From contig NZ_CANLQB010000002.1 in NCBI RefSeq assembly GCF_947493125.1, positions 186,001-250,000 on the forward strand: a DNA stretch of 64,000 nucleotides, given 5' to 3'. Within the stretch, counting starts at the first letter, position 1; each line of letters opens with the position of its first letter. A program made the translations under genes and the position numbers. A model generated the notes under the pieces. That model worked only from the letters and a program-made list of their open reading frames with translations, was not told where the DNA came from and made no database searches. This document shows, one piece after another, positions 9,919 to 31,440 of this stretch. This stretch comes from an uncultured Roseobacter sp. (GTDB lineage Bacteria > Pseudomonadota > Alphaproteobacteria > Rhodobacterales > Rhodobacteraceae).

Positions 9919-10743
9919 ATGTTCCAGGCAACCAGACGCAAATCCACCGGGGTCTCCTCAGCCTTGACGCTGTTGGAGCTGATCTATCACTCCACCGTGC
10001 GCTCGGTCCGCAAAACCCACAACAACGCCTTCGCGGCCATCTTGATCAATGTGCTGCAGATGCTGATCTTCGTCCTGGCCTTCTATGTGATGTTCTCGCT
10101 TCTGGGCCTGCGCGGCGCCGCCATACGCGGCGATTTCCTGCTCTACCTGATGTCGGGCATCTTCCTCTTCATGACCCACACCAAATCGATGAGTGCTGTG
10201 GTCGGCTCCGAGGGGCCCGCCAGCCCGATGATGCAGCACGCCCCGATGAACACCATCATCGCCATCGCCTCCGCCGCCGTGGGCGCGCTCTACATCCAGA
10301 TCCTCTCACTGGCCATCATTCTCTTCGGCTACCATGTTGCCTTCGCCGCCGTGGTGATCGAAGAGCCTGCCGCCGCCTTCGGCATGCTCATGGTGTCCTG
10401 GTTCACCGGCATCTCGCTCGGCCTCGTGCTGCTCGCGATCAAACCCTGGTTTCCCCAGGTCGTCAGCATTTTCTCAACGGTCTACCAGCGCGCCAATATG
10501 ATTGCCTCGGGCAAGATGTTCGTGGCCAACAGCCTGCCCAGCTTCATGCTGGCGATGTTCGACTGGAATCCGCTGTTTCACGCCATCGACCAGGCGCGCG
10601 GCTTCACCTTCATCAACTACAATCCACGCTACACCGACTGGCATTACGCCATGTGGGTCGGCGTGGTCCTGCTGATGATCGGCCTGATGGGCGAATTCTA
10701 CACCCGCCGCCACGCCTCGCTGAGCTGGAGCGCACGGCGATAG
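9919..10743 (+). CDS. ABC-2 type permease, KpsM-like polysaccharide exporter
   Basis: 274 aa with about six hydrophobic segments (for example residues 42-62, 67-89, 113-140, 150-180 and the C-terminal GVVLLMIGLMGEFYT). Resembles the membrane subunit of capsule/O-antigen ABC-2 exporters, including an amphipathic N-terminal stretch before TM1 and a C-terminus in the cytoplasm. No ATPase (KpsT-like) gene is adjacent, so its partner must be elsewhere. ATG 9919 is the first ATG after an in-frame stop at 9895; its ribosome-binding site is weak. It is transcribed divergently from cysQ-kdsB. Confidence 0.8.
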   Translation: MFQATRRKSTGVSSALTLLELIYHSTVRSVRKTHNNAFAAILINVLQMLIFVLAFYVMFSLLGLRGAAIRGDFLLYLMSGIFLFMTHTKSMSAVVGSEGPASPMMQHAPMNTIIAIASAAVGALYIQILSLAIILFGYHVAFAAVVIEEPAAAFGMLMVSWFTGISLGLVLLAIKPWFPQVVSIFSTVYQRANMIASGKMFVANSLPSFMLAMFDWNPLFHAIDQARGFTFINYNPRYTDWHYAMWVGVVLLMIGLMGEFYTRRHASLSWSARR

Positions 10744-25030: not shown

Positions 25031-25067
25031 AAAAGGGCGCGGCAATTACGCCGCCCCCTTTTTTTGT
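25031..25067. terminator. Bidirectional terminator between the small ORF and infB
   Basis: GC stem (GGGCGCGGC at 25035-25043 against GCCGCCC at 25050-25056, one bulge) with a 6-base loop, flanked by an A-run on the left (25029-25034) and a T-run on the right (25059-25065). It can end the plus-strand small-ORF transcript and the minus-strand infB operon. Confidence 0.85.
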
Positions 25068-25081
25068 TTTTCGCAAAGATC

Positions 25082-27559
25082 TTACGACAGTGTACGCGTA
25101 ACCTCTTCCCGCTCGAAGATTTCGATCACATCATCTGCGCGAATATCGTCGTAGTTCTCGAAAGCCATACCGCATTCTTGCCCGGACTGGACCTCGGCCA
25201 CTTCATCCTTGAAGCGCTTAAGCGTTTTCAGCGTACCTTCGTGAATCACGACGTTGTCGCGTAGCAGACGCACACCGGCCGACCGCCGCGCGACACCTTC
25301 GGTGACCAGACAGCCGGCAACTTTGCCGACGCCCGTGACTTTGAAGACCTCTTTGATCGTCGCGTAGCCGATGAAGTTTTCGCGGATCTCTGCGCTCAAC
25401 AGACCGGAAGCTGCTGCTTTCACGTCGTCCACAAGGTCATAGATCACCGAATAATAGCGAATCTCGACACCCTTCTGGTTCGCCGTGTTGCGGGCCGAGG
25501 CATTGGCACGAACGTTGAAGCCCATGATCGGCGCCTGGCTTGCTTCGGCGAGACCGACGTCCGTCTCGGTGATCGCACCCACGCCGGAATGCAGCACCCG
25601 CACGCGGACCTCGTCATTGCCGATCTTCTCCATCGCCTGAACGATGGCTTCGGCAGAACCTTGCACATCAGCTTTCACCAGGATGGGCAGTTCGGAGACG
25701 TTCTCGTCCGCCTTTGCATTGGCCATAAGCTGTTCCAAGGTGGTCGCAGCACCAGCCGCTGCCCGCTTGTCCTTGGCAGCCTGTTCGCGATACTCAGCGA
25801 TTTCGCGGGCCTGCGCTTCGGTCTCGGTCACGTTGAGGACGTCACCAGCTTCCGGCGTCCCATTCAGACCCAGGACCTCGACAGGAACGGACGGGCCAGC
25901 TTTCTTGACCCGGTCGCCCTTGTCGTTGATGAGCGCACGGACCTTGCCGTATTGCTCGCCAACCACAAAGATATCGCCCTGCTGCAGCGTACCATTCTGA
26001 ACCAGAACGGTCGCCACAGGGCCCCGGCCCACGTCCAGCTGTGCTTCGATCACGGCACCCACGGCAGCCCGATCAGGGTTGGCCTTGAGTTCCAGGATCT
26101 CGGCTTGCAGCGCAATGGCTTCAAGCAACTCGTCCAGACCCTGCCCGGACATCGCGGAAACCTCGACATCCTGCACATCACCCGAGAGTTTCTCGACGAT
26201 GACTTCATGCTGCAGCAGATCGGTGCGCACCTTGTCCGGGTTCGCTTCGGGCTTGTCGATCTTGTTGATCGCCACGATCATCGGAACTTCAGCGGCTTTC
26301 GCATGGTTGATCGCCTCGATGGTCTGCGGCATCACCGCGTCATCAGCGGCCACCACCAGCACCACGATATCCGTGACCTGAGCACCGCGCGAGCGCATCG
26401 ACGTGAACGCCGCGTGGCCAGGCGTGTCAAGGAAACTCAGCATCTGTCCGCTGTCGGTTTTCACCTGATAGGCGCCAATGTGCTGGGTGATCCCACCCGC
26501 TTCACCCGCCACAACCTTTGCATTGCGGATCGCATCCAGCAGTGAGGTCTTACCATGGTCAACGTGGCCCATGATGGTGATGACCGGCGGACGCGATTTG
26601 AGATCGTCTTCGGAATCCTCGACCTCCTTGATCACATCCTCGACGTCCGCATCCGAAACACGCACCACTTTGTGGCCGAATTCCTCGACGATCAGCTCAG
26701 CGGTGTCCTGATCGATGGTCTGGTTCTGCGTGACCATCATGCCGTTCTGCATCAAAGCTTTCACGACGGCGCCCACCTTTTCCGACATGCGGTTGGCCAA
26801 TTCCGAAACCACAATCGCCTCGGGCACCTGCACGTCGCGCACGACCTTCTCACGCTCGATGGGACCACCCATCGCTTTTTGACGCGCCCGTTCCTGCTTG
26901 CGCTTCATTGCGGCCATGGAGCGTTGACGGCCTCCATCTCCCCCGGCCAACGCCTGGTTCAGCGTCAGTTTGCCTGAACGCCGATTGTCCTCGCCGCCCT
27001 TGCCGCCGCGGCGATTGTTGTCGCGATCCCGCTCTTGTTGCTTGCGCGGCGCGCTGTCCGGCGCCTTGGTGTTCGGCTGGCGTGCGACGACAGGTTCTTC
27101 GGCCGGGGCTGTTGCTGCCTTGGCGGCGGCTTCGGCCTCTTGCTTGCGGCGCGCATCTTCCTCGGCCTTCGCCTTCAGGCTCTCTTCGCGCTCGCGCTCT
27201 TCACGTTCCTTCGCTTCCTGTTCGGCCCGCCGGCGCTCGCGCTCTGCCGCGCGGGCTTTCTCTTCCGCCTCACGGGCCGCAGTTTCTTCCGCCTCCCGGG
27301 CCTTGGCCGCCTGAACCGCCTTCAGCCGACGTTCCATTTCCGCATCGGAAATCCCGGCGGGCCGTTTGGACGGATCACCGACGGTTGCACTTCCGGACGT
27401 TGGCTTCGCCGCGCCCGGCTTCGGCACCACAACGCGCTTGCGCTTGGTTTCAACCACGACGTTCTTGGTCCGCCCGTGGCTAAAGCTCTGCTTTACGTTG
27501 CCCGGACGCGCGCCACCGCCACGCAGACCCAATGTTTTCTTGCCGTCAGTATCGCTCAT
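25082..27559 (-). CDS. infB: Translation initiation factor IF-2
   Basis: 825 aa. GTPase that places fMet-tRNA on the 30S subunit and promotes subunit joining. Residues ~80-150 form a charged, coiled-coil-like helix rich in E, R, K and A, typical of the alphaproteobacterial N-terminal extension. The G domain starts near residue 325: [13 protein letters not shown] (G1), DTPGHAAF (G3), [10 protein letters not shown] (G4). The C-terminal tRNA-binding domain ends [13 protein letters not shown]. Last gene of the rimP-nusA-ylxR-infB operon, followed by a terminator. Confidence 0.98.
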
Positions 27560-27568
27560 GAAGCTCGT

Positions 27569-28198
27569 CTATCCTTTCGAGTGGCCGATGCCACCCTCGT
27601 TTTCGCGCACGCCTTTTAGTCGGTTGGCTTCCTCTACAACACGTTGCGTGAGTCCACCAGAGGCGAGCGCCCCATGTATCACAGTTTGACGTCCGAATGC
27701 CAAACCCAATTCATCTGCCGTCAGCCAGCCAATATAGTGGCCGAAGTGCGGCGTGCTTAGTTTCGATTTGCCGCGCCCCGATCCATCCACCGCCTGGATC
27801 AGCACCTCGGCCTCTTCCATCTGAAGCCAGCTTTTGACCTTCTCGTAGCCCGCGACTGCCTTGCCTGCCTTGCGCTGCAGCGAGATCAGATCCACAACGC
27901 GCCGCGCCAACTGCGTTTCCACCTCAGTCACCAGCCCGTCGGGGATGGTAACCGGCTTCTTCGCGCCACGGGCAAAGAGCTTTTTGTCCACGGCCTTTCG
28001 CAGCGCTGTCCGGTCCGCCGAGACATAAATCCCGCGCCCAGGCAGCTTGCCCAAAATATCGGGCACAATACGATCGTCCGGCCCAGCCACGAAGCGGATC
28101 AGCCCATATTTTGGCTGCACATCACCTGTGGCAATACACTTGCGGTCTGGACCGTCACCGCGATCTTTCGGAGCGCCACCGCGACCCATCAGGCTCAT
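27569..28198 (-). CDS. YlxR-type RNA-binding protein with L7Ae-like C-terminal domain
   Basis: 209 aa. The N-terminal part (about 10-85) is the YlxR/DUF448 fold: RKCIATGDVQPKYGLIRFV and LPGRGIYV. The C-terminal part (about 95-190: LISLQRKAGKAVAGYEKV, EEAEVLIQAVDGSGRGK) resembles the YlxQ/ribosomal L7Ae family, so two proteins that are separate in Firmicutes are fused. It lies between nusA and infB, as ylxR does widely, and is probably nucleoid- or ribosome-associated. ATG 28198 is taken; ATG 28189 is possible. Confidence 0.88.
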   Translation of the reverse strand: MSLMGRGGAPKDRGDGPDRKCIATGDVQPKYGLIRFVAGPDDRIVPDILGKLPGRGIYVSADRTALRKAVDKKLFARGAKKPVTIPDGLVTEVETQLARRVVDLISLQRKAGKAVAGYEKVKSWLQMEEAEVLIQAVDGSGRGKSKLSTPHFGHYIGWLTADELGLAFGRQTVIHGALASGGLTQRVVEEANRLKGVRENEGGIGHSKG

Positions 28199-28211: not shown

Positions 28212-29831
28212 TCAGGCCTCGGCCTCCTCGGTTTCAGCGTCGTCTAGCTCAGCTTCTGCTTCAGCCTCAAGTTCCGCTGGGTCAACCCAGCCTAGCATGA
28301 TGCGGGCAGTCATGATCAGATCCTGCGCTTCTTCCAGCGAGACATCGAAAGGCTCCAGAACGCCATCGTCTTTTACTCGTTCGCCATCGACGGTTGTCCA
28401 ACCGCCTGCCAGTTCCCAATCGGCACAGGTGGCGAAGTCTTCCAGCGTCTTTACATCATCTTTGGCGAGAGCCTCAATCATTTGGGGTGTGAGCCCCTCG
28501 AATTCAACCAGGCTGTCTTCGACACCCAAGGCACGCGCACTCTCAAGCGCGGCCTTGTTCTGCGCTTCAAGCACGTCGCGCGCACGGGCTTGCAACTCAT
28601 TCGCGGTGTCTTCGTCCACACCGTCGATCACCAGCAGCTCATCGAGCTCCACATAAGCGACTTCTTCGAGGTTGGTGAACCCTTCGGAGACCAGAAGCTG
28701 CGCGAAGAACTCGTCCAGATCGAGGTTGTCCACAAACAGCTTGGTGCGCAGTTCGAACTCGGCCTGACGGCGCGCGCTTTCCTGCTCTTCGGTCATGATG
28801 TCGATGTCGAGCCCGGTCAACTGGCTGGCCAGACGGACGTTCTGACCGCGGCGGCCAATTGCGAGGCTCAGCTGTTCTTCCGGCACAACCACCTCGATCT
28901 TGCCTGCTTCCTCGTCCAGAACCACCTTGCTGACCTCGGCAGGCTGCAGCGCGTTCACGAGGAACGTGGGTTGGTCTTCGTTCCACGGGATGATGTCGAT
29001 CTTCTCGCCCTGCAGCTCGTTCACAACCGCCTGCACGCGGGAGCCACGCATACCAACGCAAGCGCCCACCGGGTCGATCGACCCGTCATAGGAAATCACG
29101 GCGATCTTGGCGCGGCTGCCGGGGTCGCGGGCCACGGCCTTGATCTCGATGATGCCGTCGTAAATCTCGGGCACTTCCATCTTGAACAGTTCCGCCATGA
29201 ACTCGGGCGCCGTGCGGGAGAGGAAGATCTGCGGGCCGCGCTGCTCGCGGCGCACGTCCTTGATGTAAACGCGAATGCGGTCGTTGGGGCGATAGCTTTC
29301 TCGCCCGATCTTCTCGTTGCGGCGCAGGATCGCCTCGCCCGCGCCGACATCGACGATGACGTTGCCGTATTCCTCGCGCTTGACGAGACCGTTGATGATG
29401 GTGCCTGCACGATCCTTGAATTCTTCGAACTGGCGGTCACGCTCGGCTTCGCGGACCTTCTGCAAGATCACCTGCTTGGCCGATTGCGCGGCAATCCGGC
29501 CCATCTCCACCGGGGGCACTTCTTCGACCAGCTGCTGACCCACTTCGGGGTTTTCCATATACTGTTTGGCCTGCTCGACGGTGAACTCAGCCTGATAATT
29601 CTCCAGCTCTTCATCCTCGACCACGGTCCGCACGCGGGTGAAGGTCGCCTTGCCGGTCTTGCGGTCGATGGAGACGCGAATGTCCATCTCGGCGCCGTAG
29701 CGCGACTTGGCCGCACGGGCGAGCGATTCTTCCATCGCCTCTACCACCAGACCGGGGTCGATCATCTTCTCGCGGGCCACGGCCTCGGCGGTTTGCAACA
29801 GCTCAAGCTGGTTTGCAGATGTGATTGCCAT
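28212..29831 (-). CDS. nusA: Transcription termination/antitermination factor NusA
   Basis: 539 aa. Binds RNA polymerase and nascent RNA, enhances pausing and hairpin-dependent termination, and takes part in rRNA antitermination. N-terminal RNAP-binding domain (1-~125), S1 domain (~130-200), two KH domains (~205-345, with [22 protein letters not shown]), then two C-terminal helix-hairpin-helix acidic repeats and an acidic tail. ATG 29831 directly abuts the rimP TAA, and its ribosome-binding site (GGGAG) lies inside the end of rimP, so translation is coupled. Confidence 0.98.
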
Positions 29832-30410
29832 TTATAGGTCTCCCTCAGCAGACTGATCTGGTTGGATCTCGTCAAATTTCGTCTCGTCGATGGCACCTGA
29901 CGCTTTGCGCTGGCGCAGCATTTCCTTGATCAGATCATCGGTCAGCACGAGTTTCGCATCCGACAACCAACCGAATTTTAGGCCAATCGTGCCCTCGGCC
30001 ACATTGATCAGAACCTCGTCATTCTCAACGCCCGCCAGCTCACCCTTGAAGCGGCGGCGGCCGTCGATCATCTCACCCGTCTCGATCTTGGCCTCATAGC
30101 CTTCGAACATCTCGAAGTCTTTCAGCCGCGTCAGCGGGCGGTCGATCCCGGGGCTGGACACTTCCAGCGTATACTCATCCAGGATCGGGTCTTCGACATC
30201 GAGAATGGCGCTGACCGCCTGGCTGATCTCGGCGCAGTCGTCCACCTCGATGCCGCCCTCGGGCTTGTCGGCCATGATCTGCAAGGTGGTCGACTTGCCC
30301 GACATCAGACGCACGCGCACCAGTTCAAACCCCATATCCTCGATCACCGGGGTGATGATCTCGGCCATGCGGCGGTCGATGGCGGCTTTTGCGATCAAAT
30401 CGTTTGTCAT
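29832..30410 (-). CDS. rimP: Ribosome maturation factor RimP
   Basis: About 192 aa. Needed for 30S subunit maturation. Two-domain RimP fold: N-terminal alpha/beta part ([40 protein letters not shown]) and C-terminal SH3-like part ([16 protein letters not shown]). ATG 30410 has GAAAG 5 bases upstream. A GTG at 30425 is in frame but directly follows the U-run of an intrinsic terminator. First gene of the rimP-nusA-ylxR-infB operon. Confidence 0.95.
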
Positions 30411-30497
30411 CAGTCTTTCAGGCACAAAAAAACGGGCGCGCGGCCCGTGTCGTGTTCCGGTGGAGCGTTTGGTGTGGACCCGAACGCGCCGCTGTTA
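30411..30497 (-). ncRNA. rimP leader RNA with intrinsic terminator (candidate attenuator)
   Basis: Transcript region between the expected start (near 30497) and rimP. It contains an upstream stem option (GTTC at 30485-30482 with GAAC at 30457-30454) and then the terminator hairpin. A leader segment GGCGCG (30490-30485) can pair with CGCGCC (30440-30435), which includes half of the terminator's 3' arm, giving a possible antiterminator. A 31-codon ORF (start 30505, inside the -10 box) runs through the leader and overlaps the rimP ATG, but its start lies upstream of the predicted RNA start. Enterobacterial rimP leaders are a described attenuator class; this one is not obviously related in sequence. 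Confidence 0.6.
30426..30448 (-). terminator. Intrinsic terminator just before rimP
   Basis: On the minus strand: ACGGGC (30448-30443), 5-base loop, GCCCGT (30437-30432), followed by a run of seven T (30432-30426). It ends 15 bases before the chosen rimP start. It could serve the upstream binding-protein gene, but a promoter lies between that gene and this terminator. Confidence 0.8.
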
Positions 30498-30502
30498 CGA
30501 TG

Positions 30503-30531
30503 CATATACGCAGCAGGTGCTGAGTCTGCAA
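30503..30531 (-). promoter_or_regulatory. rimP operon promoter
   Basis: On the minus strand: TTGCAG (30531-30526), exactly 17 bp, TATATG (30508-30503). The same -35 hexamer and spacing are seen before dnaK. RNA should start near 30497, upstream of the terminator at 30448-30426, so rimP transcripts pass through it. Confidence 0.6.
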
Positions 30532-30543
30532 CCCCTGATCGCG

Positions 30544-31440
30544 TCAGCCCATCCACCAGCGCTCGGCGGCGCGCAGATTGTCGAGCGGGGCGCACCTGCC
30601 GACGACCTGCGGGATCTGCACATTCTGCACCGCGACCGCGCTGACGCGCCCTGTGTCGGGCAACAGCGACAGCTGGTCCGTTCCACTCAGGAGGCCAAGA
30701 TCTGTCAGGTCGGCTGCGTCTACAAATCCTTCCCGCAGCGCCTCGACTCGCACCTCATCGGACGGGATCGAAACCAGCTCGACGCTGTCGAACCAGCCAG
30801 CCTCACCATCCTTGTAGTGAGTCTCGACCCGCTGGCCGATGACCTGTCGCCCCGGCAGGAAGCGATGCAGACGATAGAGCCCGGTACCGATCCCTTTGGC
30901 CATAGCCTCCAAAGTGTTGGCGGCGGGGTACATCACCAAGTGAGCGGATGAGAGCCGATAAGGGAAATCTGCATCCGGTACCGCGAGCGTGATCCGTACG
31001 GTCGCGGCATCGGTCACCGTAATGCCCTCAATATCCGCCAGCAGCGTGTCGCGATGCAAAGCGAGGGACGCGACAACATCATCGCCGGTGAACTCGGCAC
31101 CATCGTGGAAGTGCACGCCGCGCCGCAGCTCTAGCTCCCAGATGCGGGCATCCGCGCTGCCTCGCCAAGCAGTCGCCAGCTCGCCCCGCAAGATACCATC
31201 GGCGCTCACTTCGGTGAGTGTGTCAAAGATCATACCGGACATGGCCACCTGCATGAAGAGGCCGTGACTCGACCGCGTATCAAAGCTGTCATCGCGCGCA
31301 GCCCCGGACAACGCCATGCGCAACCGCCCGCCGCGCCGCGGCTGCGGGCCCGCCGACACCCCGGTGGCTGCCAGCAAAGCGGCCGCCGCACCAGAGGCGA
31401 AGAGCGCGCGCCGGTCGATATGCCGTGTGACCCGGTTCAT
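30544..31440 (-). CDS. Short Tat-exported ABC substrate-binding-like protein
   Basis: 298 aa. Resembles the N-terminal lobe and hinge of peptide/nickel-binding proteins (DppA/OppA class, SBP_bac_5): PRRGGRLRMALSG, LTEVSADGILRGELATAWRG, WELELRRGVHFHDGAEFTGDDV, GTGLYRLHRF. Full-length members are about 500 residues or more, so most of the second lobe is absent. A twin-arginine signal (DRRALFASGAAAALLAATG) is present, with no lipobox. ATG 31440 overlaps the pip stop (ATGA). No permease genes are adjacent. Likely a conserved short variant rather than a broken gene, because the frame ends cleanly. Confidence 0.75.
   Translation of the reverse strand: MNRVTRHIDRRALFASGAAAALLAATGVSAGPQPRRGGRLRMALSGAARDDSFDTRSSHGLFMQVAMSGMIFDTLTEVSADGILRGELATAWRGSADARIWELELRRGVHFHDGAEFTGDDVVASLALHRDTLLADIEGITVTDAATVRITLAVPDADFPYRLSSAHLVMYPAANTLEAMAKGIGTGLYRLHRFLPGRQVIGQRVETHYKDGEAGWFDSVELVSIPSDEVRVEALREGFVDAADLTDLGLLSGTDQLSLLPDTGRVSAVAVQNVQIPQVVGRCAPLDNLRAAERWWMG

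Follow-up and report, generated by a model that had tools for sequence, protein, structure and literature searches.

Why should an operon that encodes core components of transcription and translation be preceded, after its own promoter, by what looks like a complete intrinsic terminator, and what might decide whether RNA polymerase stops there or continues? The question arises on the minus strand of the window (the whole 64,000-nucleotide stretch of DNA that was analysed), where a sequence-only reading had described a promoter, a short leader and a terminator ahead of rimP and had suggested that NusA may repress its own operon by promoting termination at this site. The features concerned are the following.

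30503 to 30531, minus strand: sigma-70-type promoter (TTGCAG at 30531-30526, 17-nt spacer, TATATG at 30508-30503), read directly
30489 to 30497, minus strand: 5' end of the leader RNA, (Y)AAYAGCGG, conserved; transcription start predicted from the -10 element to lie near 30497-30496
30458 to 30491, minus strand: P1 hairpin, with an outer CGG:CCG and an inner GCGUU..AACGC stem, ending with conserved CCACCG; from covariation
30426 to 30448, minus strand: intrinsic terminator, ACGGGC-CGCGC-GCCCGT plus T7; read directly, by pattern scan and by comparison
29832 to 30410, minus strand: rimP, first gene of the operon (Pfam RimP_N and RimP C-terminal domain)
28212 to 29831, minus strand: nusA (Pfam NusA_N, KH_5)
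27569 to 28198, minus strand: ylxR (DUF448; Pfam YlxR)
25082 to 27559, minus strand: infB, encoding IF-2 (Pfam IF-2, IF2_N)

At the other end of the operon, just after infB and between convergent genes, positions 25036-25054 show a terminator-like hairpin, and both strands have T tracts there.

Promoter and terminator ahead of rimP

The terminator hairpin occupies 30448-30432, its T7 tract ends at 30426, and the rimP ATG stands at 30410, 15 nt beyond the end of the tract. The complete intrinsic terminator, with a 6-bp stem and T7, that had been claimed for this position can be read directly in the letters. Because terminator-like sites are frequent in the surrounding 10-kb region (17 found versus 8.2 expected in shuffles), one sequence alone proves little, and comparison with other loci was therefore needed. 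A consensus pattern scan of the same 10-kb region matched the terminator and gave no match to the promoter.

We gathered 111 loci from relatives and from named genomes (the best 80 among the matches listed), all of them with rimP except L063; the resulting 110 are not a count of species, since the window's own locus and some organisms are represented twice, and they comprise 104 distinct leader sequences. The leader was kept in every one of the 110 loci with rimP. Its start, AA[CT]AG[CT]G, was found at the expected distance in all of them (110/110) and AA.AG.G was invariant across 62 aligned leaders, a constancy that is partly built in, as AA[CT]AG[CT]G served as the search anchor for the leader start. 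The -10 element reads TATATG or TATATC in 99/110 loci and ends 6 or 7 nt ahead of AAYAG in 107/110; the promoter of the sequence-only reading, in minus orientation, is present in the letters, with its -10 element and the spacing of that element conserved upstream of the terminator. The T-tract is equally regular (T7 in 105 loci, T6 in 4 and T8 in 1) and is followed by the rimP ATG after 9-66 nt, which leaves little room for a further promoter between terminator and gene, as had been argued from the window. With a conserved promoter upstream and so few nucleotides between T-tract and ATG, transcription of the operon most likely passes through the terminator in its leader, in agreement with the original proposal. 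A GTG that follows the T7 was considered as the rimP start codon and rejected, the distance from T-tract to ATG being a multiple of three in only 60/110 loci. By eye, we also noticed in L083 and L104 a GTGGAGG near the start codon that is complementary to the CTCCAC of the leader.

The stem of this terminator is of a particular kind. GGGC..GCCC was present in 75/75 recognised leader terminators versus 41/359 other predicted terminators in the same set of loci (L032-L111), and a T run of at least 7 in 75/75 versus 16/359; the 359 were predicted on either strand, and 5 of them, with T7GTG, are probably unrecognised rimP leaders, so that the contrast is slightly understated. The median hairpin energy of the leader terminators was -10.4 kcal/mol, weaker than that of the others (-12.8 kcal/mol). 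Loss of the stem in relatives had been named beforehand as an outcome that would speak against the reading; what we found was its conservation.

Genes upstream of the leader

By homology, 78/109 loci have a co-directional SBP gene no more than 2.2 kb upstream (1.4 kb in short loci); the one in the window has its stop at 30544. The hairpin might accordingly be the 3' terminator of that upstream gene, with the rimP start further downstream. We find this scarcely plausible: the leader is preceded by its own conserved promoter, the 9-66 nt after the terminator are all that is left for a later one, and the leader persists at loci with a different or a divergent upstream gene. The last point comes from the 31/109 loci in which an upstream SBP match was absent. 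Nine proteins from 8 of these loci were checked by Pfam, and the leader was present in all 8; the upstream genes were divergent in three cases (ADH in L022, an ion channel in L109 and a SnoaL-like protein in L110) and co-directional in four (VTT in L030, an epimerase in L024, a hydrolase in L101 and CDGSH in L054), and two of the nine proteins had no Pfam match. In the window, the gene upstream of the leader (30544-31440, minus strand) encodes an SBP_bac_5 protein of 298 aa; L032 likewise shows 298 aa, and relatives such as L105 have an open frame of 514 aa at this position; the 298-aa gene of the window may be a shortened remnant.

Architecture of the leader

The leader spans about 72 nt in the window and, with AAYAG and the last T of the tract taken as its limits, 65-74 nt over the 110 loci. 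From its 5' AAYAGCGG it passes through the P1 hairpin and CCACCG to the GGGC..GCCC terminator with mostly T7, and the RNAalifold fold is composed of the outer CGG:CCG pairs, the inner hairpin of P1 and the terminator, with AAYAG and CCA as conserved unpaired stretches. In the inner P1 stem, 7/7 pairs carry changes on both sides and 87.3% of cells are paired; the covariation score was matched in 0/500 shuffles and in no slid control, the structure having been derived from the same alignment of 62 leaders in which it was tested. Five of the six pairs of the terminator stem are unchanged in 60-62 of the 62 sequences. From these comparisons, the terminator is constrained by sequence and P1 by structure. 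Stability was dropped as a line of evidence, the folding of the whole leader being not unusual (z -0.66); for the P1 region alone the mean z was -1.29 over 104 leaders.

A switch between alternative structures had also been proposed, in which GGCGCG (30490-30485) would pair with CGCGCC (30440-30435) as an antiterminator. The letters are present, but their pairing is not conserved beyond chance: there are 0 compensatory changes, 85.4% of cells are paired versus 86.0% in shuffles, 481/500 shuffles reach the observed pairing, and all six pairs are formed in 25/62 sequences. The other candidate for mutually exclusive folding, GCGGC:GCCGC, is complete in 56/62 sequences, with 97.7% of cells paired, but this pairing is uninformative because it is nearly invariant without compensatory change, and it shares bases with the outer P1 pairs. 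Control by mutually exclusive antiterminator and terminator folds, built on either pairing, is in our estimation highly improbable. Of the two alternative stems in which covariation was to be sought, the terminator stem is kept and hardly varies, and the antiterminator is not supported.

A GC-rich stem with a perfect T7 and without a supported antiterminator might simply be a constitutive partial terminator, which would set a fixed, low read-through without any regulator. We regard such an arrangement as unlikely. A plain terminator needs pairing only, whereas this stem is near-invariant in sequence and of a form that is shared by all of the recognised leader terminators and by few of the other predicted ones; the 5' end and P1, which lie outside the terminator, are conserved as well; and autoregulation of NusA via leader termination is reported for Bacillus subtilis in the relevant passages of a recent review (PMC12288461).

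Distribution in the family and the class

A covariance model built from 62 leaders gave a match at E <= 0.001 in 196/196 sampled genomes of the order (87/87 genera), all of which are listed as one family; there was one match in 189 genomes and two in 7, and scores varied, some genera being weak (down to E 1.6e-4). The window's own genome contains one strong match, at the rimP leader (89.3 bits; the next scores 24). In all 84 genomes with compared coordinates the match stood just before rimP: on its contig and strand and 10-83 nt upstream in 66/66 genomes, and 13-35 nt upstream in 18/18 of the weaker-scoring ones, a set of 20 from which G080 and G164, lacking a listed rimP position, were left out. 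Because the leader is kept in all rimP loci, is found order-wide and always lies just before rimP, we do not attribute it to chance.

A family-wide RNA, single-copy in nearly all genomes and with conserved unpaired AAYAG and CCA, could also be a trans-acting small RNA, namely the terminated leader of about 72 nt, with attenuation as a by-product. The invariable placement before rimP (84/84) argues against this, as does the failure of any known small RNA to score over its cut-off here, and we give the idea very little credence. SorX (RF02784) matched the leader weakly over its full length, at 13.2 bits versus a cut-off of 46.6, and was rejected because the genome has its true SorX at another site, with 92.2 bits.

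Among 241 genomes of the class, the model matched in 12. Four are listed family members with strong matches (82-92 bits), whereas the matches in the eight non-family genomes were weak (26.6-30.6 bits) and were taken as chance; in G048, G274 and G344, which have listed rimP positions, they do not lie beside rimP. From this difference between strong family and weak non-family matches, we take the extended leader to be specific to one family, Rhodobacteraceae judged by organism names.

The wider class was represented by 67 better-scoring non-family genomes with a rimP match (L151-L217), 66 of them with a usable start. Between 250 nt before rimP and 30 nt past its start, a terminator was present in 59/66 (versus 7% of shuffles), with the strict GGGC..GCCC stem in 40/66; an earlier and cruder scan, which covered 19 class loci, detected a terminator in only 6 of the 14 that were analysable. 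In the 50 of the 66 loci that a terminator pattern could anchor, the promoter word CTTGA occurred upstream of the terminator in 24 (versus 3.5 expected) and the word CATAG in 11 leaders (versus 1.6-1.9 expected), and the stretch before the terminator had a mean z of -0.43. AAYAG was not enriched in these non-family leaders (4/50, with about 6 expected), and we rejected it as a class-wide NusA site. A GTGGGC..GCCCAC terminator stem recurs upstream of rimP in this non-family set; leaders with this stem and CATAG are possibly an older, class-wide form of the Rhodobacteraceae leader.

Proposed mechanism

The leader is probably a conserved attenuator of the rimP-leader kind, a judgement that draws on the comparison of loci, across which the predicted promoter, the leader, P1, the terminator and their constant spacing are conserved. 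RNA polymerase would start near 30497 and make an RNA of about 72 nt with two hairpins; at the T7 tract (30426) it would either terminate, releasing the short RNA, or read through into rimP-nusA-ylxR-infB. We infer that termination takes place in the cell and that read-through is partial. Since the somewhat weak stem has a fixed sequence and no supported antiterminator, the decision would most likely be made by a protein, for which NusA is the leading candidate: high NusA would bring more termination and lower its own operon, and low NusA would permit read-through. If the leader is indeed an attenuator, NusA is a reasonably likely regulator. Set against attenuation are the considerations that a GC-rich stem with a perfect T7 might terminate without NusA, that an essential operon with a terminator 15 nt ahead of it depends on substantial read-through, and that, with a co-directional SBP gene upstream in most loci, the terminator could also stop the transcripts of that gene.

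The boxC-like RNA that is bound by Mycobacterium tuberculosis NusA ends in CAAUAG. By analogy, the conserved 5' AA(C/U)AG might be read by the KH domains of NusA, and the leader might then be a dedicated NusA-sensing RNA in which P1 holds the spacing and NusA acts on the GGGC..GCCC terminator some 40 nt later; we put this forward as a speculative and rather doubtful extension of the attenuator reading. The binding of a boxC-like RNA by M. tuberculosis NusA is described in PMC6614801. Were the extension true, the leader RNA would measure free NusA.

Comparison with known systems

No Rfam family scored over its cut-off at the leader of the window, where two fell below it (E 0.82 and 7.4), and at the leaders of 6 family loci no family matched. 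The Rfam family RF01770 (rimP) bears the same gene name and, by that name, stands for the same operon leader; it gave no match at the leader of the window, exceeded its cut-off in 0/19 relatives and 1/14 control genomes, and was rejected as the identity of the leader. In 20 class loci, three below-cut-off matches (SorX, STnc390 and L20_leader) fell on the rimP leaders of L166, L181 and L182 and probably reflect the shared terminator. Elsewhere in the window, at 10486-10638 on the minus strand, there is a match of 113.6 bits to RF02645, the Cis2_sRNA of Ruegeria. Among the listed open-licence matches we found no description of the family's extended leader, which is not proof of its absence; together with the lack of an Rfam match over cut-off at the loci scanned, this makes an extended leader that is shared throughout the family and has a covarying upstream hairpin apparently new.

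The kind of attenuator is itself already published, and the extended leader is a variant of it. In the main text of Naville and Gautheret (2010, PMC2965389), the rimP-leader is presented as the most ubiquitous attenuator, consisting of a GGGc..gCCC terminator with no larger element, and NusA is suggested as the regulator of rimP-leaders in general. The locus described here fits that class, as the sequence-only reading had supposed: a GGGc..gCCC stem with a T stretch lies in the 5' untranslated region of rimP-nusA-infB, the distance from terminator to gene (15 nt in the window and 9-66 nt across the loci) falls within the 4-130 nt given there, and the general form is likewise without a visible antiterminator and with NusA as the proposed regulator. 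In contrast to that general form, the leader of this one family is extended by a covarying P1 and a conserved 5' end and keeps a constant length; in the main text of PMC2965389, Alphaproteobacteria appear in one reference title only. In the passages of the 2025 review that treat B. subtilis (PMC12288461), it is treated as established that NusA regulates itself by stimulating termination within its 5' leader, whereas for the present leader this is a matter of inference. Our findings bring into the Alphaproteobacteria an attenuator that is widespread but little tested, in a form whose leader is unusually complete and constant. They offer a compact system of about 100 bp in which to study the possible recognition by NusA of its own leader and the reason why the GGGC..GCCC stem is frozen in sequence, and they suggest that, across a large bacterial family, expression of a core transcription and translation operon is metered ahead of the first codon.
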